Assembly (NCBI GenBank): GCA_003331265.1
Contig: QOPV01000013.1
Location: 1 to 37,623 of the forward strand
Length of the DNA: 37,623 bases
Source of the DNA: Cryomorphaceae bacterium
GTDB taxonomy: Bacteria; Bacteroidota; Bacteroidia; Flavobacteriales; Flavobacteriaceae
Direction of reading: 5' to 3'
Shown: positions 24,896 through 33,371 of the stretch, one piece after another
Position numbering within the stretch: position 1 is the stretch's first letter
Layout: every line of letters begins with the position of its first letter
The notes under the pieces: generated by a model
What the model was told of the DNA's origin: nothing
Seen by the model: the letters and a program-made list of their open reading frames with translations, nothing else
The model's database searches: none
Program-made: the position numbers and the translations under genes

Positions 24896-25660
24896 TTAAT
24901 TTCTTATTTTATTTATAAAATCACTCACTTTACCCACGCCATATTTTTTTAAGTGTTTTATAAATGCTGAACCTATAATCGCACCGTTACTGTTTTTAAT
25001 TGCATCTAAATATGTTTGCTTATTACTTATTCCAAATCCAATTATTAGTGGAGAGCTTAAATTCATTTTATTTATTCTTTCAAAGTATTTTGTTTGTTCT
25101 TTTTTAAAAGAATTAACAGATCCTGTAATACTAAAACTACTTACCATATAAATGAAACCACTAGAAATTTCATCAATAAATCTAATTCTTTTATCAGATG
25201 TTTGTGGAGTAATTAGAAACATGTTTAGAAGATTATATTTTTCAAAAATTGTTTTATAATTATTATTGTAAATTTCAACAGGTAAATCTGGAATTATTAG
25301 ACCATCTATTCCAGCTAACTCACAGTCCTTGCAAAAAGATTCAACTCCATATTGCATAATTGGGTTAAAGTAACCCATTATAATCAGAGGAATATTAGTT
25401 TCTTTTCTTAACCCTTTAAGTTGTTCAAATAATTTTTTAGTTGTCATTCCATTTTTTAATGCTTTTGTTGAACTTTCTTGAATAGTTGGACCATCTGCTA
25501 AAGGGTCACTAAAAGGCAGTCCAATTTCAATCATATCAACACCACAGTTGTCCAAACTTTTTATGATTGAAGTTGTATCAGAAAGATCTGGAAAACCTGC
25601 AGTGAAATAAATGGATAATATTTCTCTTTTTTTATTTAAAACTTTATTAATTCTATTCAT
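24896..25660 (-). CDS. trpA: Tryptophan synthase alpha chain TrpA
   Basis: TrpA cleaves indole-3-glycerol phosphate to indole, which is channelled to TrpB. The signature EIGLPFSDPLADGPTIQ (45-61) holds both catalytic acids, E45 and D56. MGYFNPIMQYG and GFGISN are the other phosphate-site motifs. Length of 254 aa is slightly short but complete. Unusually it is separated from trpB by a sulfatase gene: its ATG lies inside the end of that gene (8-nt overlap), so TrpA production probably depends on translation of the sulfatase. It is the last gene of the tryptophan operon. Confidence 0.96.
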   Translation of the reverse strand: MNRINKVLNKKREILSIYFTAGFPDLSDTTSIIKSLDNCGVDMIEIGLPFSDPLADGPTIQESSTKALKNGMTTKKLFEQLKGLRKETNIPLIIMGYFNPIMQYGVESFCKDCELAGIDGLIIPDLPVEIYNNNYKTIFEKYNLLNMFLITPQTSDKRIRFIDEISSGFIYMVSSFSITGSVNSFKKEQTKYFERINKMNLSSPLIIGFGISNKQTYLDAIKNSNGAIIGSAFIKHLKKYGVGKVSDFINKIRN

Positions 25661-27200
25661 CAGATGGTTTCAAATATGTTCTTTTGCCATTTGTGTCATA
25701 TAAATCTCCAGGGGTATACTTTATTCTGTTGTATGGCTTTTGTTCAAATTGTCTCCCAAGTCCTTTAGGCTTAACTCTGGCCTCTTTTATTCTTAAATCT
25801 ATTTCAGTTTTTAGGGAATTAAATATTGGTAAATAATTTTCGTTTTTAGCCAGATTTATTAATTCTTCTTTATCATTAGTATGATCATAAAGTTCATAAC
25901 CTAATTCACCATTTTCTCCCCACTTGGTAAGTCTATAGTTTTCCGATTTAATTGAGTATCCATTTCTCCATCTTGTTAAAGCACTGTTTCTAATTTTAAA
26001 ATTGGAGTCTTCAAATACAGGCAATAAACTTTTTCCAACAACATGATCAGGTGATTTTATTCCTGTAAGTTCCATTAATGTTGGGTAGATATCAATTAAC
26101 TCGACAGGGGAGTTAGTTTTTATACCTTTTTCAATCCCGGGGCCAGAAAAAATTAAAGGAACTCTTGTGGAGTTATCAAATAGGGTTTGTTTTTGCCAAT
26201 ACCCGTGCTCTCCTAAATGATATCCATGGTCTGATGAAAATACAACTATAGTATTTTTATCAAGACCAGTTTTTTCTAATTTATCCAGAACTCTTCCTAT
26301 CTGGGCATCCATGAAAGAAATGGTAGCGTAATAAGCTTCTTTAATTTCTTTAGATAGTTCTTTATTAGATTTTAAATTTAATTTAATTTGATCTTTTTTT
26401 GCTCTTATTGATCTTGCTGCTGGTGTAGGAATTGATTTTAAATACTCATCGCTGACTCCAGTATAAGGAATGACCATATCTTCTTTTTCATACAAATCAA
26501 AATATTTTTTTGGAGCAACGTATGGTGTATGTGGCTTGAAAAATCCCACAGCCAAAAAGAAACTTTGCCCATTTTTAGAAAATTTTTCCAGTTGTTCAAC
26601 TGCTTCAGTAGCAACTATTCCATCAGTTTGTTCTTCATCATTTCCATCAGCTTCGAGCCAACTTAAGGTTCCTCCATATTGTCGTTCACTTAATGTATTT
26701 ATTTTATATTCCTCCTCTTTATCTCTTCCCCATGGATTTATTGTATAATCCCAAGTATAAATATCATCTGAACTGGAGCTGCCTATAGATCCGGGATTGT
26801 CGTAATGAAATATTTTTCCAATTCTTACTGATCTGTAATTTTGTTGTCTATATCTTTGCCCCAGTGTAACAACATCCGGGGTTGTAGTTCTAATATCTAC
26901 ATTAAGGGTTGTATGCATTGTTTGATCAGAATACATTCCTGTCATGAAAGAGGCTCTAGATGGTCCGCACAAAGGGTATTGATTATGAGCATTTTCAAAA
27001 AGAATACCTTGACTAGCTAGCTTGTCAATATTAGGACTTATTACCTGCGAATGTCCGTAAGAACCTAAATCACAGTTAAGATCATCTGTCATTATAAATA
27101 ATACATTAAGTTTCTCATTTTTATCTACTGGAATCTCCTTATTGCATCCAAATAATATAATAATACTAAATGCTTGTAAAAAAATTTTAATTGATTTCAT
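25653..27200 (-). CDS. Lipoprotein sulfatase, iduronate-2-sulfatase-like, inside the trp operon
   Basis: The N-terminus is a lipoprotein signal with the lipobox LFGC (C19), so the mature enzyme is membrane-anchored. The S1 sulfatase core follows: NVLFIMTDDLNCDLGSYGH with the metal-binding aspartates, and LCGPSRASFMTG, whose cysteine in CxPSR would be converted to formylglycine by a maturase encoded elsewhere. VFSSDHGYHLGEHG supplies further metal ligands. TMHTTLNVDIRTTTPDVVTLGQ and GKIFHY resemble the iduronate-2-sulfatase branch. Sulfatases in marine Flavobacteriia usually act on sulfated algal polysaccharides; the substrate here is unknown. It lies between trpB (78 nt upstream) and trpA (8-nt overlap), with no sugar-utilization genes nearby. 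The 78-nt gap holds only a partial promoter box (TATATTTA, 27216-27223). Confidence 0.93.
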   Translation of the reverse strand: MKSIKIFLQAFSIIILFGCNKEIPVDKNEKLNVLFIMTDDLNCDLGSYGHSQVISPNIDKLASQGILFENAHNQYPLCGPSRASFMTGMYSDQTMHTTLNVDIRTTTPDVVTLGQRYRQQNYRSVRIGKIFHYDNPGSIGSSSSDDIYTWDYTINPWGRDKEEEYKINTLSERQYGGTLSWLEADGNDEEQTDGIVATEAVEQLEKFSKNGQSFFLAVGFFKPHTPYVAPKKYFDLYEKEDMVIPYTGVSDEYLKSIPTPAARSIRAKKDQIKLNLKSNKELSKEIKEAYYATISFMDAQIGRVLDKLEKTGLDKNTIVVFSSDHGYHLGEHGYWQKQTLFDNSTRVPLIFSGPGIEKGIKTNSPVELIDIYPTLMELTGIKSPDHVVGKSLLPVFEDSNFKIRNSALTRWRNGYSIKSENYRLTKWGENGELGYELYDHTNDKEELINLAKNENYLPIFNSLKTEIDLRIKEARVKPKGLGRQFEQKPYNRIKYTPGDLYDTNGKRTYLKPSDE

Positions 27201-27278
27201 GTGTGTTATTTTATTTAAATATATTAAATGTAATATTTTGATTGGATGTTAAATAGGTATAATTTATGTGTAAATAAA

Positions 27279-28466
27279 TCATAACTTAAAATACTCAATG
27301 TAGGTGTCCAAGTCTTTATCTCCTCTTCCAGAGCAATTAAAAACAATAACATCAGTTTTTTTAAATTTCATTTTATCAAGAACTGCAAAAGCATGTGAAG
27401 TTTCTATTGCAGGAATAATTCCTTCCATTCTTGATAAAATCAACCCCCATTCCATGGCATCCTTATCTTCAATTGAAATAAACTTTCCTCTTCCCGATTT
27501 ATACAAGTTAGCATGCATTGGGCCAACTCCTGGATAATCAAGTCCAGCAGAAATTGAATATGGCTCTGTTATTTGTCCATCCTGAGTTTGCATCAATAGA
27601 GTTTTAGAACCATGAATGATTCCTTCTTTACCTAATACTGAGGTAGCTGCACTTTCTCCAGAATTTATTCCTTTTCCTGCTGCCTCTACACAAATTATTT
27701 TCACTTTTTCGTTATCTAAATAGGGATAAAATATTCCCGCTGCATTGCTTCCGCCTCCAACACAAGCTATAACATAATTAGGGTTTTCATTTCCCTCAAC
27801 TTTTTTTAATTGTTTTTTAACTTCATTTCCAATTACAGATTGAAACCTAGCAACCATATCAGGATAGGGGTGGGGCCCCACAACTGAACCAATGATATAA
27901 TGTGTGTCAACTGGATTATTTATCCAATCCCTAATGGCTTCGTTTGTGGCATCCTTGAGTGTTTTACTTCCTGAAATTGCAGGCTTGACTTCTGCACCTA
28001 ACATTTTCATTCTGGCAACATTTGGAGCCTGTCTAGATATATCCACCTCTCCCATATAAATAATACATTTAATTCCCATTAGCGCACATACAGTAGCAGT
28101 AGCAACTCCATGCTGTCCAGCTCCTGTTTCAGCAATTATTCTAGTTTTACCCAGTTTTTTTGCAAGTAGTATTTGTCCTATTGTATTGTTTATTTTATGA
28201 GCTCCAGTATGGCATAAATCTTCTCTTTTTAAATAAACTTTCGTATTATATTTTTTAGAAAGCCTTTTTGCGTAATAAAGTGGGGTAGGCCTTCCTACAT
28301 ATTTTTCTAATAAGTCATCGAATTCTTTTTTAAAACTTATTTCAGATGATATTTTTAAATATTTAGATTTAAGTTCTTCAATATTAGCATGCATCATTTC
28401 TGGGATAAATGCTCCGCCAAAGTCACCATAAAACCCATTTTTATCTACATTATAAGAATTTTTCAT
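27279..28466 (-). CDS. trpB: Tryptophan synthase beta chain TrpB
   Basis: TrpB condenses indole with serine using PLP. GAHKINNTIGQ contains the PLP lysine, ETGAGQHGVATA and CVGGGSNAAG the substrate and phosphate loops, and SAGLDYPGVGP the conserved mid-C-terminal stretch. At 395 aa it is a normal TrpB1 that should pair with the TrpA of this operon. Its ATG overlaps the trpF stop by 4 nt (ATGA), indicating coupled translation. The usual direct junction to trpA is interrupted by the sulfatase gene. Confidence 0.97.
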   Translation of the reverse strand: MKNSYNVDKNGFYGDFGGAFIPEMMHANIEELKSKYLKISSEISFKKEFDDLLEKYVGRPTPLYYAKRLSKKYNTKVYLKREDLCHTGAHKINNTIGQILLAKKLGKTRIIAETGAGQHGVATATVCALMGIKCIIYMGEVDISRQAPNVARMKMLGAEVKPAISGSKTLKDATNEAIRDWINNPVDTHYIIGSVVGPHPYPDMVARFQSVIGNEVKKQLKKVEGNENPNYVIACVGGGSNAAGIFYPYLDNEKVKIICVEAAGKGINSGESAATSVLGKEGIIHGSKTLLMQTQDGQITEPYSISAGLDYPGVGPMHANLYKSGRGKFISIEDKDAMEWGLILSRMEGIIPAIETSHAFAVLDKMKFKKTDVIVFNCSGRGDKDLDTYIEYFKL

Positions 28467-29074
28467 TTTTTCATTTTATTTATTAGTTCATTAACTTTTT
28501 TATAATCTTTTAATCCAGGCTTAGTTTCAAATTTACTGTTGATGTCAATTCCTAACAAAGGAATTTTTAGTTTTTCAATGTTTAATAAATCTGGAAAATC
28601 AATAATATCAATACCGCCGCTTAACAAAAAGGGTTTTTTTGAATTATATTTTTTTAGAATTTTCCAGTCAAATTTAATCCCATTTCCACCATATGAATCC
28701 CCTTTGGTATCAAACAAAAAATAGTCACAAACTTTTTCAAATAAACTTAATTTTTTAAAATTGAATTCTTTCCCAATATTAAATACTTTAATTACTTTAC
28801 AATGAGCTTTGATTTTATTACAAAATTCAGAGCTTTCATTACCATGTAATTGAACAAAATCAAGATTAAATTGATTTATTTTATTTATAATTAAGTCATA
28901 ATCTTGATTAACAAAAACCCCAACTTTTTTTATTGTATTAGAAATATCAATTGTTTTCTCATTAAAAAACCTTTTAGAATTTGGCCAGAAAATAAAACCC
29001 ATAAAATCTGGATTTAAATTATTTATTTCAGAAATATTGTTTTTAAACTTCATTCCACAAATTTTCAATTTCAT
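28463..29074 (-). CDS. trpF: Phosphoribosylanthranilate isomerase TrpF
   Basis: TrpF catalyses the Amadori rearrangement of phosphoribosylanthranilate. It is a TIM-barrel of 203 aa with the catalytic KICGMK at the N-terminus (C5), GFIFWPNSKR, VGVFVNQ, VQLHGNES and the catalytic Asp region FLFDTKGDSYGGNG, then LSGGID and GIDINSKFE-KPG at the phosphate site. It is a stand-alone gene rather than fused to trpC. It lies 4 nt after trpC and overlaps trpB by 4 nt. Confidence 0.95.
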   Translation of the reverse strand: MKLKICGMKFKNNISEINNLNPDFMGFIFWPNSKRFFNEKTIDISNTIKKVGVFVNQDYDLIINKINQFNLDFVQLHGNESSEFCNKIKAHCKVIKVFNIGKEFNFKKLSLFEKVCDYFLFDTKGDSYGGNGIKFDWKILKKYNSKKPFLLSGGIDIIDFPDLLNIEKLKIPLLGIDINSKFETKPGLKDYKKVNELINKMKK

Positions 29075-29078
29075 TTTA

Positions 29079-29864
29079 CTAATTTTTTAAATTATTAATG
29101 AAATTATCTGCTGCTTTCCCGGGATTTTTTTCTTTCATAAAATTTTCACCCATTAAAAAACCTTCAAATCCATAATTAATAAGTTCTATTATTTCTTTCT
29201 TACTGGTAAGGCCACTTTCAGAAATTTTAACAAATTCTTTTGGAATAAATTCCACTAAATTTTTACTGGTTTGGATATTCACTTCAAATGTTTTTAGATT
29301 TCTATTATTAACTCCAATAATATCTATGGAATCAATCAAACACTTATTTAATTCATCGAGATTATGAATTTCTATTAACACTTCTAGCCCTAAGCTTTTG
29401 GCAAATTGACTTAGGGATTTTATGGATTCTTTTTTTAAACATGATGCTATTAAAAGAATTGCGTCAGCTCCTAATCCTTTTGCTTCAATTATTTGATACT
29501 CATCGATAATAAATTCTTTTCTTAAAACCGGAAGTTTAGTGTTTTCTCTGGCAATTATTAAATCTTTAGAAGATCCTCCAAAATATTGTTCATCAGTCAA
29601 AATAGAAATTCCACTAGCACCTGCATTCTCATATCCTTTTACTACATCGCTAACATTTGAGTTTTTATTAATAATTGATTTTGAAGGCGATTTTCTTTTA
29701 AATTCTGAAATGATTCCAAACTTACAGTTTTGAAGACTTTGTGATAGAGAATTTACAGGCCTACTAAACCCTTTTAGTCTTTCAAGATCAGAAAATGAAT
29801 TATTTTTTTTATTTAATTCTATTTCAGTTTTTTTAGTTTCAATTATTTGATTTAAAATGCTCAT
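29079..29864 (-). CDS. trpC: Indole-3-glycerol phosphate synthase TrpC
   Basis: TrpC closes the indole ring from CdRP. The TIM-barrel motifs include FGIISEFKRKSPSKSII (catalytic K and E), ISILTDEQYFGGS, LPVLRKEFIIDEYQI, IGVNNRNLKTFEV, and SESGL at the phosphate site. The 261-aa length is standard. It overlaps trpD by 1 nt (TAATG) upstream and is followed by trpF after 4 nt. Confidence 0.96.
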   Translation of the reverse strand: MSILNQIIETKKTEIELNKKNNSFSDLERLKGFSRPVNSLSQSLQNCKFGIISEFKRKSPSKSIINKNSNVSDVVKGYENAGASGISILTDEQYFGGSSKDLIIARENTKLPVLRKEFIIDEYQIIEAKGLGADAILLIASCLKKESIKSLSQFAKSLGLEVLIEIHNLDELNKCLIDSIDIIGVNNRNLKTFEVNIQTSKNLVEFIPKEFVKISESGLTSKKEIIELINYGFEGFLMGENFMKEKNPGKAADNFINNLKN

Positions 29865-30856
29865 TATTTACTTAGTTTTTTTAAAGTTTTAAATGCATTT
29901 AAAGCTTTTCCAGAATTCAAAGATTCTCTTGCTTTTTCAATCCCATTTTTAATACTAATGTTTTGGGCAGTTGAAATGGCTATTCCTGAGTTAGCTAAAA
30001 CAACGTTATTTTGTGAACTAGATCCTTTATTATTTAAAATATTCATAAAAATTTTTGCGGATTCTGAAATTGAATTACCTCCAACTATAGACTTAGGTTT
30101 TAATATATTTAAATCAAAGTTTGATGGTTCGAATATTTTTTCGGAATTATTAGAAATGATTTTAACATTTCCCGTTAGAGACACTTCATCATAACCATCT
30201 AACGAATGAATGATTGAGAAATTTTTATTTGATTTTTGAAATATATATGAGTATAATCTAGCTAATTCTAAGCTATAAACTCCAACCATTTGATTGTTAG
30301 GAGATGAGGGATTTACTAATGGTCCCAACATATTAAAGAAGGTTTTTAATCCTAATTCTCTTCTTATTGGAGCAACATGCTTCATTGCTGGATGAAAAAG
30401 AGGAGCATGAAGAATACATATACCACTTTTTTCAATACAACTTTCTATAAAACCTTGATCATTCGAAAATCTAATCCCTAAATTTTCTAATACATTACTA
30501 GATCCACACGATGATGAAACTCCATAGTTTCCATGTTTGGCAACTTTTATTCCAGCTCCAGCAGTAATAAAAGCAGATAGTGTAGAAATATTAAATGTGT
30601 CTTTATTATCTCCTCCAGTTCCACATAAATCAATAGTATTATATTTTTTTAAATCAATGGAAATACATAGCTCAATTAAGGCGTCTCTAAACCCTTCTAG
30701 CTCTTCAACTGTAATATTTCTAATCATATATACAGTTAAGAATGAAGTAACATGTGAATGATTATGTGTCCCGCTAGAAATTTCAAGCAATATGTTTTTA
30801 GCTTCTTCTCTGTTTAGAGTTTTATGAGTAAATAATTTATTTAATATATCTTTCAT
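29864..30856 (-). CDS. trpD: Anthranilate phosphoribosyltransferase TrpD
   Basis: TrpD joins anthranilate and PRPP. The glycine-rich PRPP site GTGGDNKDTFNIST, KHGNYGVSSSCGSSN for anthranilate and the metal-binding DGYDEVSL are all present. I use the ATG at 30856 (330 aa, MKDILNKLF), which overlaps the trpG stop by one base (TAATG), the same junction type as trpD/trpC. The frame extends six codons further upstream to 30874, but that reading lies inside trpG and is less likely. Anthranilate synthase glutaminase and TrpD are separate proteins here, unlike the fused form of enterobacteria. Confidence 0.96.
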   Translation of the reverse strand: MKDILNKLFTHKTLNREEAKNILLEISSGTHNHSHVTSFLTVYMIRNITVEELEGFRDALIELCISIDLKKYNTIDLCGTGGDNKDTFNISTLSAFITAGAGIKVAKHGNYGVSSSCGSSNVLENLGIRFSNDQGFIESCIEKSGICILHAPLFHPAMKHVAPIRRELGLKTFFNMLGPLVNPSSPNNQMVGVYSLELARLYSYIFQKSNKNFSIIHSLDGYDEVSLTGNVKIISNNSEKIFEPSNFDLNILKPKSIVGGNSISESAKIFMNILNNKGSSSQNNVVLANSGIAISTAQNISIKNGIEKARESLNSGKALNAFKTLKKLSK

Positions 30857-31419
30857 TATTTGATTTTTAACCAATTTTTTAAAAGATCTTTTCCGTGTTC
30901 TGTTAAAATAGATTCAGGATGAAATTGAACTCCTCTTAAATTATACGTTTTATGTTTAAATGCCATTATCTGTCCGTTTTGATCATAAGCTAAAGCCTCC
31001 AAATCATCTGGAAGTGGTTCTTTAACAACCCAAGAATGGTAACGTCCAACTTTTAAAGGGTTTGGTAAATCATTAAAAAGAGGGTCTTCTTTAATAATAT
31101 TTATATCAGTAGCAACTCCATGATAAACGGTTTTTAAATTAACAAGTTCTGCTCCAAAAACTTCAGCTATCGCTTGGTGTCCCAAACATACCCCTAAAAT
31201 ACTTTTTGTATTAAAAAAAGATGAAATAATTTCTTTTAAAAGACCAGCCTCGTTTGGAATTCCTGGACCGGGAGAAAGAACAATTTTATCAAACTTTTCA
31301 ATTTCTTTTATATTGACTTGATCATTTCTTTTGACTGTTACCTCACATTTAAGTTCTTCTAAATAATGAACTAAATTGTAAGTAAAAGAATCGTAATTAT
31401 CAATAACTATAATTTTCAT
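30856..31419 (-). CDS. trpG: Anthranilate synthase component II (glutaminase) TrpG
   Basis: TrpG supplies ammonia from glutamine to TrpE. The class I amidotransferase triad is visible: the nucleophile in GVCLGHQAIAEVFG, and the His-Glu pair in VQFHPESILTEHG. LSPGPGIPNEAG forms the oxyanion strand. The 187-aa stand-alone form may also serve PabB if one exists, but its position between trpE and trpD supports a main role in tryptophan synthesis. It starts 2 nt after trpE and overlaps trpD by one base. Confidence 0.96.
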   Translation of the reverse strand: MKIIVIDNYDSFTYNLVHYLEELKCEVTVKRNDQVNIKEIEKFDKIVLSPGPGIPNEAGLLKEIISSFFNTKSILGVCLGHQAIAEVFGAELVNLKTVYHGVATDINIIKEDPLFNDLPNPLKVGRYHSWVVKEPLPDDLEALAYDQNGQIMAFKHKTYNLRGVQFHPESILTEHGKDLLKNWLKIK

Positions 31420-31421
31420 AT

Positions 31422-32837
31422 TTAAATTTTTTCAGCAATTTCTAGTGCGGTGTTTAATGCACCAAGTTTATTGTAAATTTCTTGTAATTCATTTTCCGGA
31501 ACAGATTTTGAAACAATTCCAGCTCCAGCTTGAAATAAAAGTTCATAGTTTTTACTTAGAAATGATCTAATTATTATCGCATGATTAAAATTCCCCTCAA
31601 AATCCATAAAACCAATTGCTCCACCGTAAAATGATCTATTACAATTTTCATATTCGTCAATTAATTGCATCGCCCTATGTTTTGGCGCACCAGTTAATGT
31701 CCCAGCAGGAAATGTATCGGCAGCAATTTGAAAAGTAGACGAACCATTTTTCTTGATTCCAGTTACTTTTGAAACAAGATGTATAACATGAGAATAAAAT
31801 TGAATCTCTCTATCCTTTTCTACTTTTACATCGTTTCCATTTCTACTTAAATCATTTCTGGCTAAGTCAACAAGCATCATATGTTCACTATTTTCTTTGT
31901 CATCTTTTGAAAGTTTCTCAGCTTTTTTTGAATCTTCTAGATCATCACCGGTTCTTTTAAATGTCCCTGCTATTGGATGAATTTCAGCTTTATTCTTTTT
32001 AACAACTAATTGTGCTTCTGGAGAACTTCCGAAAATTTTATAACTACCATAATCAAAATAGAATAAATATGGAGAAGGGTTAACTGATCTTAATGCTCTG
32101 TATAGATTAAACTCATCCCCCTTAAATTTTTGTTTAAATCTTCTGGATAGAACAATTTGAAAAACATCTCCCCTGTAACAATGCTTTATTCCTTTTCTAA
32201 CAAGATCAATATATTGTTTATCATTAATATTAGAGTTTAATTCTCCAACTCTTGAAAAAGGAAACTTAGACGAATTGTTTGAAGAAATAATATTTAATAT
32301 ATCATCCAAATTATTTTTTTCATTAAAACTGTGATGAAATAATTTAGCCTCATTATTAAAAACATTAATCACAATTACATTTGAATAAAAAGCATAGTAT
32401 ATGTCAGGAATTTTTGTGTCGTTATTTTTAGACTGGATATTTATATTTTCAAAGTATTTTATTGAGTCATAATTCATGTATCCAAAAACTCCATTATTAA
32501 TAAATTTTTTGTCATTTTTTTTGCACTCAAATAATTTACAAAATTCATCAACTTGCTTAACTACATCAATATTTTTATTTATTTCAATAGTCTCTTTTAC
32601 TCCACCAGGAAAAGATTTTGATATTATATTTTCTTTAACAGAAATGTGAGCAATAGGATTGAAGCATACATAGGCAAAACTGTTATCATTTGCACCATAA
32701 TCACTACTTTCCAACAGTAGAGAGTTTGAAAACTTATCTCTAATTTTTAAGTAAATACTAACAGGTGTTAAAGTATCTGCTAATAGTTTTTTTTCGGATG
32801 TTAATATTTTGTACAATTTCTTATTTGTTTTAATCAA
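31422..32837 (-). CDS. trpE: Anthranilate synthase component I TrpE
   Basis: TrpE makes anthranilate from chorismate. LLESSD near the N-terminus is the tryptophan-binding motif for feedback inhibition; the chorismate-binding core shows GDVFQIVLSRRF, PIAGTFKRTGDD, MLVDLARNDLSRNG, and GTLTGAPKHRAMQLIDEYE. No ATG is available in frame. I take TTG at 32837 (471 aa), which begins in the U-tract of the attenuator terminator; a second TTG at 32816 is also plausible. The frame continues to a TTG at 32858, but those seven codons are the hairpin itself and should not be coding. Expression is expected to be controlled by the leader attenuator and by product inhibition. Confidence 0.94.
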   Translation of the reverse strand: MIKTNKKLYKILTSEKKLLADTLTPVSIYLKIRDKFSNSLLLESSDYGANDNSFAYVCFNPIAHISVKENIISKSFPGGVKETIEINKNIDVVKQVDEFCKLFECKKNDKKFINNGVFGYMNYDSIKYFENINIQSKNNDTKIPDIYYAFYSNVIVINVFNNEAKLFHHSFNEKNNLDDILNIISSNNSSKFPFSRVGELNSNINDKQYIDLVRKGIKHCYRGDVFQIVLSRRFKQKFKGDEFNLYRALRSVNPSPYLFYFDYGSYKIFGSSPEAQLVVKKNKAEIHPIAGTFKRTGDDLEDSKKAEKLSKDDKENSEHMMLVDLARNDLSRNGNDVKVEKDREIQFYSHVIHLVSKVTGIKKNGSSTFQIAADTFPAGTLTGAPKHRAMQLIDEYENCNRSFYGGAIGFMDFEGNFNHAIIIRSFLSKNYELLFQAGAGIVSKSVPENELQEIYNKLGALNTALEIAEKI

Positions 32838-32862
32838 AAAAGGCCTGTCGCGAGACAAGCCT
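32836..32862 (-). terminator. Intrinsic terminator of the trp attenuator
   Basis: On the minus strand the stem AGGCTTGTC / GACAGGCCT forms nine base pairs (one G-U) around the tetraloop TCGC, followed by six U residues (32841-32836). This is by far the strongest hairpin-plus-U-tract noticed in the window. It lies between the leader peptide and trpE, where a terminator makes sense only as a conditional one. Confidence 0.85.
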
Positions 32863-32888
32863 AAATATTATTATATAATTTAATTGGT

Positions 32889-32951
32889 CTATCGCGAGAT
32901 ATCTAAATTAATTATCCACCACCAAATATTAAATTTTAAATTTTTTAACAT
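32889..32951 (-). CDS. trpL: trp operon leader peptide with three consecutive Trp codons
   Basis: A 20-codon ORF (MLKNLKFNIWWWIINLDISR, stop TAG) precedes the trpE terminator. The three TGG codons in a row lie at 32924-32916. Tryptophan is the rarest residue, so a WWW run in a short ORF directly upstream of trpE is unlikely by chance and is the hallmark of an attenuation leader. The peptide itself probably has no function beyond sensing charged tRNA-Trp through ribosome stalling. An exact promoter box ends 4 nt before its ATG, so the mRNA may begin at or next to the start codon. It is too short to be called by routine gene finding. Confidence 0.85.
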   Translation of the reverse strand: MLKNLKFNIWWWIINLDISR

Positions 32952-33059: not shown

Positions 33060-33371
33060 ATGAATCTTAGTCAAGAAGAATGGGCGAAGTCAATTAATAA
33101 ATTTGATAACAGTGTCGTTATAGATGTAAGAACTACAGAAGAATTTGAAGAAGGATTTATTAATAAATCAATTCATCTAAATATATACGACTCACAGCTT
33201 TTTTTAGAAGGAATAAAAAAACTTGATAAAAATCATAATATTCATGTTTATTGTCGTTCTGGCGCAAGAAGTTTTCAGGCTTGCGAGTTAATGAATCAAT
33301 TAGGCTTTAAACATGTTTATAATTTAGATGGAGGAATTTTAGAGTGGAAAGGAAAAATTTTAAAAAAATAA
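33060..33371 (+). CDS. Rhodanese-like single-domain protein
   Basis: One rhodanese domain fills the 103-aa protein: VVIDVRTTEEFEEGFI at the start, the active-site loop CRSGAR with the sulfur-carrying cysteine (residue 65), and YNLDGGILEWKG at the end. Such small cytoplasmic rhodaneses accept sulfane sulfur and pass it on in thiol or sulfur-relay chemistry; the partner is not evident. It is divergent from the trp operon, with about 110 bp between its ATG and the leader ATG. The PspC-like gene follows almost without a gap, so the two are likely cotranscribed. Confidence 0.92.
   Translation: MNLSQEEWAKSINKFDNSVVIDVRTTEEFEEGFINKSIHLNIYDSQLFLEGIKKLDKNHNIHVYCRSGARSFQACELMNQLGFKHVYNLDGGILEWKGKILKK

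Follow-up and report, generated by a model that had tools for sequence, protein, structure and literature searches.

The closest described system is RF01692 (Bacteroid-trp), which Weinberg et al. (2010; PMC2864571) predicted to be a cis-regulatory RNA in Bacteroidetes and which Rfam names 'Bacteroidete tryptophan peptide leader RNA'. An RF01692 element before the trp operon of F. psychrophilum has been discussed as an attenuator resembling that of E. coli (PMC6414381), and leader-peptide attenuation has been noted upstream of amino-acid operons (PMC9723704). Subscription papers aside, the literature on attenuation in Bacteroidetes yielded little beyond the reports cited here.

We analysed the region upstream of trpE in Cryomorphaceae bacterium, an uncultured marine flavobacterium with a 1.53-Mb draft assembly, in a window of 37,623 nucleotides, the whole stretch of DNA under analysis. 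With high confidence, the element located there is considered a ribosome-mediated transcription attenuator of the trp operon. It is already described in kind for this lineage and not new in kind, because RF01692 matches relatives at this site and the F. psychrophilum paper already interprets the element as attenuation. RF01692 and the window element share the place before trpE, the order of the parts and the terminator core. Among 60 kin genomes, RF01692 scored above the cut-off in 14, always at the leader before trpE; three of these belong to the window's genus (G002, G005 and G014), and two more congeners reached 34 bits at the same place (G015 and G018). On the minus strand of the window, RF01692 gave no match up to E 10 (cut-off 49 bits), and the only match in the window was antisense with 20.1 bits. 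The window copy fails RF01692 by score, and is the same element by position and by a covariance model built without its genus (R2, described below).

Layout of the leader and the operon

The leader lies between the trp operon and a divergently oriented rhodanese gene, and the following features were assigned.

33060-33371, plus strand: rhodanese gene, divergent from trpE
32986-32984, minus strand: TTG fitting the -33 element, with a 20-nt spacer to the -7 box
32963-32956, minus strand: -7 promoter box TATATTTG, fitting the Bacteroidota sigma-A consensus TAnnTTTG
32951, minus strand: predicted transcription start at the A of the leader ATG, deduced from the box position
32836-32951, minus strand: leader region
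32951-32889, minus strand: leader ORF trpL, MLKNLKFNIWWWIINLDISR*, 20 codons from ATG (32951-32949) to TAG (32891-32889)
32924-32916, minus strand: three consecutive TGG codons in the sequence, the sensor
32897-32887, minus strand: antiterminator segment 2, UCGCGA-UA-GAC, overlapping the leader stop UAG (32891-32889)
32862-32836, minus strand: intrinsic terminator with a 9-bp stem, UCGC loop and U-tract (32841-32836)
32856-32848, minus strand: antiterminator segment 3, composed of the loop flanked by GUC from the terminator 5' arm and GA from the 3' arm
31422-32816, minus strand: trpE, the first operon gene, 464 aa from the likely start TTG 32816 (Pfam Anth_synt_I_N and Chorismate_bind)
24896-31419, minus strand: rest of the operon, trpG, trpD, trpC, trpF, trpB, a sulfatase gene and trpA (Pfam, ORFs)

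On the minus strand the gap thus reads TTG, 20 nt, TATATTTG, the leader ORF with TCGCGA at its stop, an A/T-rich spacer, the hairpin with its U-tract, and trpE. The short ORF with tandem Trp codons (WWW) lies between the promoter and the first trp gene and was kept in relatives. The hairpin AGGCTTGTC-TCGC-GACAGGCCT (32862-32841) forms nine pairs including one G-U and is followed by T down to 32836; this intrinsic terminator, standing before the first structural gene, headed the list of terminator-like sites from a scan of 12.6 kb (11 sites found against 5.0 expected). The preliminary description had pointed out a 20-codon ORF with three consecutive TGG codons, a competing segment at its stop codon and a 9-bp hairpin with a six-base U-tract before trpE. 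All were found in place: the ORF is located as stated, TCGCGA at 32897-32892 lies directly 5' of the TAG, and the run of six T counts the last base of the stem.

The box consensus TAnnTTTG has been described at -12 to -5 in F. psychrophilum, where 5.5% of mRNAs are leaderless (PMC9723704). Since the same spacing was assumed here, transcription is predicted to start at the A of the leader AUG, and the leader mRNA of the window is probably leaderless. Of 109 leaders, 102 carried a TAnnTTTG box at most 60 nt 5' of their ATG, and 89 of these also had TTG at the -33 distance. The predicted 5' UTR was exactly 0 nt in 12 of the 17 leaders in the genus, 1 nt in 28 leaders outside it, and 12-15 nt in another group. 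Leaderless trpL and leucine leaders, likewise with the start codon at the 5' end of the transcript, occur in Sinorhizobium (PMC7298713) and Streptomyces (PMC8079986); these belong to other phyla, and the leaderless start in the window is a prediction.

The trpE ORF as listed from 32858 begins inside the hairpin. The true start is most likely the TTG at 32816-32814, 19 bases after the U-tract, because the reading frame upstream of this TTG is closed by stops in close relatives (L002, L003, L007 and L009). Throughout the genus trpE apparently starts with TTG (GTG in some congeners), and with ATG in many other Flavobacteriaceae; annotated trpE starts running into the terminator would be wrong.

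The sulfatase gene (PF00884, SGSH_C; 25653-27200, minus strand) lies between trpB and trpA and shares 8 bases with the start of trpA. It was kept in the operon of three congeners (G015, G016 and G017) and was absent from G011, where trpB directly precedes trpA. The arrangement implies that this gene would be under tryptophan control in the subclade. In F. psychrophilum, an unrelated elastase gene is co-transcribed with trp (PMC6414381).

A his leader, MKFNRNNHHHLNILKRVM*, was found upstream of hisG in the same genome (L147, G000:C42), followed by a hairpin, AAACCCGTTTG-TTAATT-CAAACGGGTTT, whose long T-tract immediately precedes hisG; CAAACG, part of the spacer, is complementary to the 5' arm of the hairpin. 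Like the Trp leader, it has three codons for the amino acid produced and a U-tract hairpin before the first gene, whereas the sensor codons and the hairpin sequence are different.

Conservation and covariation

Each part of the window sequence, taken singly, was only moderately unusual. TGGTGGTGG is present in about 15 copies per strand of the 1.53-Mb assembly, 30 in total when compared to 26 for the reversed control, and WWW alone is therefore weak evidence. The single-sequence fold of the leader was mildly unusual (z -1.86), and the pairing of spacer and apex was equalled or bettered by 26/500 or 9/500 shuffles, varying with the extent of the 3' arm that had emerged. Chance is nevertheless excluded, because more than 100 loci keep the order of the parts and both helices covary.

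The comparison of regions upstream of trpE, which the preliminary description had proposed, detected a Trp-codon leader (WW or WWW) with a hairpin at every one of the 80 named Flavobacteriaceae loci. The 60 kin genomes held 41 trpE loci, all preceded by a Trp leader and hairpin, with WW or WWW in 40 and a single Trp in one; the two sets of loci overlap in part. Relatives lacking both the Trp codons and the hairpin, named earlier as the case against the attenuator, did not occur. The residues of the leader peptide outside the Trp run were poorly conserved, even inside the genus.

The covariance model R2 was trained on 31 leaders, all from genera other than that of the window. It detected the window copy with 65.7 bits and an E-value of 6.7e-11 for the whole genome; among the 22 congeners, it matched all 17 with trpE and none of the 5 without. 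The model R1 gave a single clear match in the genome, the next being at E 0.23. A second weak match of R1, containing TGGTGGTGG (C12:93822), was rejected as a chance match at the C-terminal end of a longer protein, and many weak R1 matches across the phylum were ordinary terminators. Among the R1 matches read, those with WWW leaders ahead of trp genes proved to be real (L151, L156, L159, L161, L162 and L165); the phylum tally of 71/296 is not a prevalence, because real leaders and ordinary terminators are mixed in it. Two of these leaders come from other Bacteroidota, with a WWW leader and hairpin standing before a stand-alone trpB-like gene (L159, G233:C22) and before trpD (L151, G061:C1), both genes named from translation only. 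Judging from these names, the attenuator precedes the first trp gene, whichever one that is.

Two arrangements were observed besides the standard one. Two complete WWW leaders with hairpins were arranged in tandem before one trpE, as a double attenuator, in L117 (G037) and L115 (G052), and RF01692 marked both tandem leaders below the cut-off. In 6 of the 80 loci, representing at least two genera, a small GIY-YIG gene was located between the Trp attenuator and trpE (about 2670-2950 in L048, L066, L069 and L101; 2608-2901 in L054; 1640-1942 in L058), apparently inserted just behind the hairpin. The copy in L048 was identified as PF01541, and the other five look alike.

The spacer box TCGCGA is complementary to the apex of the hairpin, and segments 2 and 3 pair over 9 bp with a 2-nt bulge. 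Within the genus, the box/apex pairs were TCGCGA/TCGCGA, TCGTGA/TCACGA, TCGATA/TATCGA and TCGAAA/TTTCGA. When compared with RF01692, the window has TCGCGA/TCGCGA in place of TCGTGA/TCACGA, and its leader stop has moved by one codon, from TGA to CGA TAG. Over 48 leaders, 94.4% of the box-apex cells were paired against 86.8% after shuffling, and two-sided changes numbered 20 against 4.1 (0/500 shuffles). None of the slid registers of box against apex approached the covariation of the true register in these 48 leaders. With 34 apex types the mean energy was -9.7 kcal/mol for their own boxes and -7.1 kcal/mol for exchanged boxes, and 0/10,000 permutations were as good. These covariation counts are inflated by kinship; the changes are nevertheless spread over several lineages, including families with quite different apexes. 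The terminator stem was paired in 100% of the cells over the 48 leaders, with five pairs changed on both sides (0/500 shuffles). The parts, their conservation and the covariation of both helices are read directly from the genome sequences, and the two TCGCGA copies, suggested earlier to act as the antiterminator, belong to a box and an apex that covary (0/500 shuffles).

Folding with a simulated ribosome and the proposed mechanism

Equilibrium folding of the whole leader under a ribosome mask gave the terminator in every state, also for E. coli, and did not discriminate. As it was uninformative, it was replaced by the folding of growing transcripts with the ribosome footprint masked, and E. 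coli trpL was run likewise. With the ribosome at any Trp codon, about nine antiterminator pairs were formed in the model from the emergence of the apex until 6-7 of the 9 bases of the 3' arm were out. With the ribosome at the stop, there were no box-apex pairs and the terminator closed. Folding with the ribosome at the Trp codons or at the UAG, as proposed in the preliminary description, thus gave the antiterminator in the former state and none in the latter. The outcome was unchanged for downstream footprints of 9-18 nt, and E. coli trpL showed the same switch under this procedure. In these computations the antiterminator excluded the terminator, being free with the ribosome at the Trp codons and blocked with the ribosome at the stop. 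The switch is kinetic in this model, because the complete leader at equilibrium always folds the terminator, as that of E. coli does. Without a ribosome, antitermination is predicted for the window, unlike for E. coli.

A 1:2 hairpin, in which the Trp codons would pair with the segment following the stop, was not supported in the window, as 99/100 shuffles were as good or better. A stem near the Trp codons belongs to the full-length MFE structure, with pairing no better than in shuffles. A separate protector hairpin would be unnecessary, because the stop codon sits inside the antiterminator segment.

We infer leader translation, termination and a response to tryptophan as follows. RNA polymerase would begin transcription at the leader AUG or immediately beside it, and the 20-codon peptide would be started by a ribosome. 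When Trp-tRNA is scarce, the ribosome would stall on UGG-UGG-UGG with its footprint ending upstream of the spacer box, and the free UCGCGAuaGAC could pair with GUCUCGCGA once the 5' arm and loop of the terminator emerge; this antiterminator would block the terminator and allow transcription of trpE-A. When Trp-tRNA is plentiful, the ribosome would reach the UAG inside the box segment and cover this segment, so that the 9-bp hairpin would form and transcription would stop before trpE. The trpL-like logic suggested earlier, with stalling, antiterminator and terminator, gains support from the conservation, the compensatory changes and the masked folding, as far as genome comparison and modelling can indicate.

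The likeness to E. coli trpL, comprising a short Trp-codon ORF, competing antiterminator and terminator, and the same response to a simulated ribosome, is one of design. The window differs in that the box overlaps the leader stop, and that its partner is the hairpin apex (loop and inner arm edges) instead of the 5' arm with the preceding sequence. It also differs in having no supported 1:2 hairpin and a predicted leaderless start, where the E. coli trpL leader has a 5' UTR with a Shine-Dalgarno sequence. Flavobacteriaceae rarely use Shine-Dalgarno sequences. Tentatively, the window may represent a compact attenuator without protector hairpin, common across Flavobacteriaceae, in which the ORF is leaderless, the stop lies inside the antiterminator, ribosome occupancy alone decides and an untranslated leader reads through; we regard this broader proposal as possible yet rather doubtful.

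Alternative explanations and significance

The hairpin might be the ordinary terminator of another transcript beside a coincidental WWW ORF, and TGGTGGTGG is indeed not rare (30 copies, control 26). The upstream gene is, however, divergent and the U-tract lies on the trpE strand, and the order of promoter, Trp ORF, box, hairpin and trpE, kept in more than 100 loci, together with the covariation, has already refuted mere coincidence by conservation, which makes it extremely improbable. Another tryptophan sensor, namely a T-box, TRAP site or riboswitch, has a negligible probability, as the Rfam matches above the gathering score were four tRNAs only and a permissive regional scan gave unrelated noise.

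An effect mainly on trpE translation instead of transcription, through re-initiation or masking of the weak TTG by the hairpin, is very unlikely. The window hairpin does end about 20 nt before the likely TTG, and for Bacteroidetes it has been suggested that ribosomes re-initiate downstream of leader genes (PMC4833913); the stretch between leader stop and trpE nevertheless exceeds 70 nt, far above the peak of 11-14 nt for Bacteroidetes in the same report. Moreover, the U-tract is conserved right after the stem, and some relatives have 60-500 nt between hairpin and trpE, six of them with the GIY-YIG gene in this interval, an arrangement which neither start masking nor re-initiation would tolerate. 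There is a slight chance that attenuation is real and that the leader RNA, once released, or the 20-aa peptide has a further function in trans, for which rnTrpL/peTrpL of S. meliloti, with a leaderless trpL, is a precedent (PMC7298713), and the terminated RNA would indeed be a small leaderless mRNA. A target of the peptide is disfavoured, because its sequence apart from the Trp run shows poor conservation even among congeners. Transcription attenuation by the translating ribosome is retained as the best explanation.

These results extend a known, little-studied class of Trp attenuators to streamlined marine flavobacteria. What is added here is the comparative evidence for the antiterminator, a better model and the predicted leaderless design with the stop in the box. 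RF01692 recovers 14 of the 41 kin copies, and such leaders are therefore under-annotated; R2, the model that leaves out the genus, is a ready replacement for Flavobacteriaceae. The predicted leaderless start and the stop codon inside the antiterminator raise the testable question of how transcription and translation are coordinated at an attenuator in bacteria rarely using Shine-Dalgarno sequences. For this organism, the switch most likely restricts expression of the pathway to times of tryptophan shortage.
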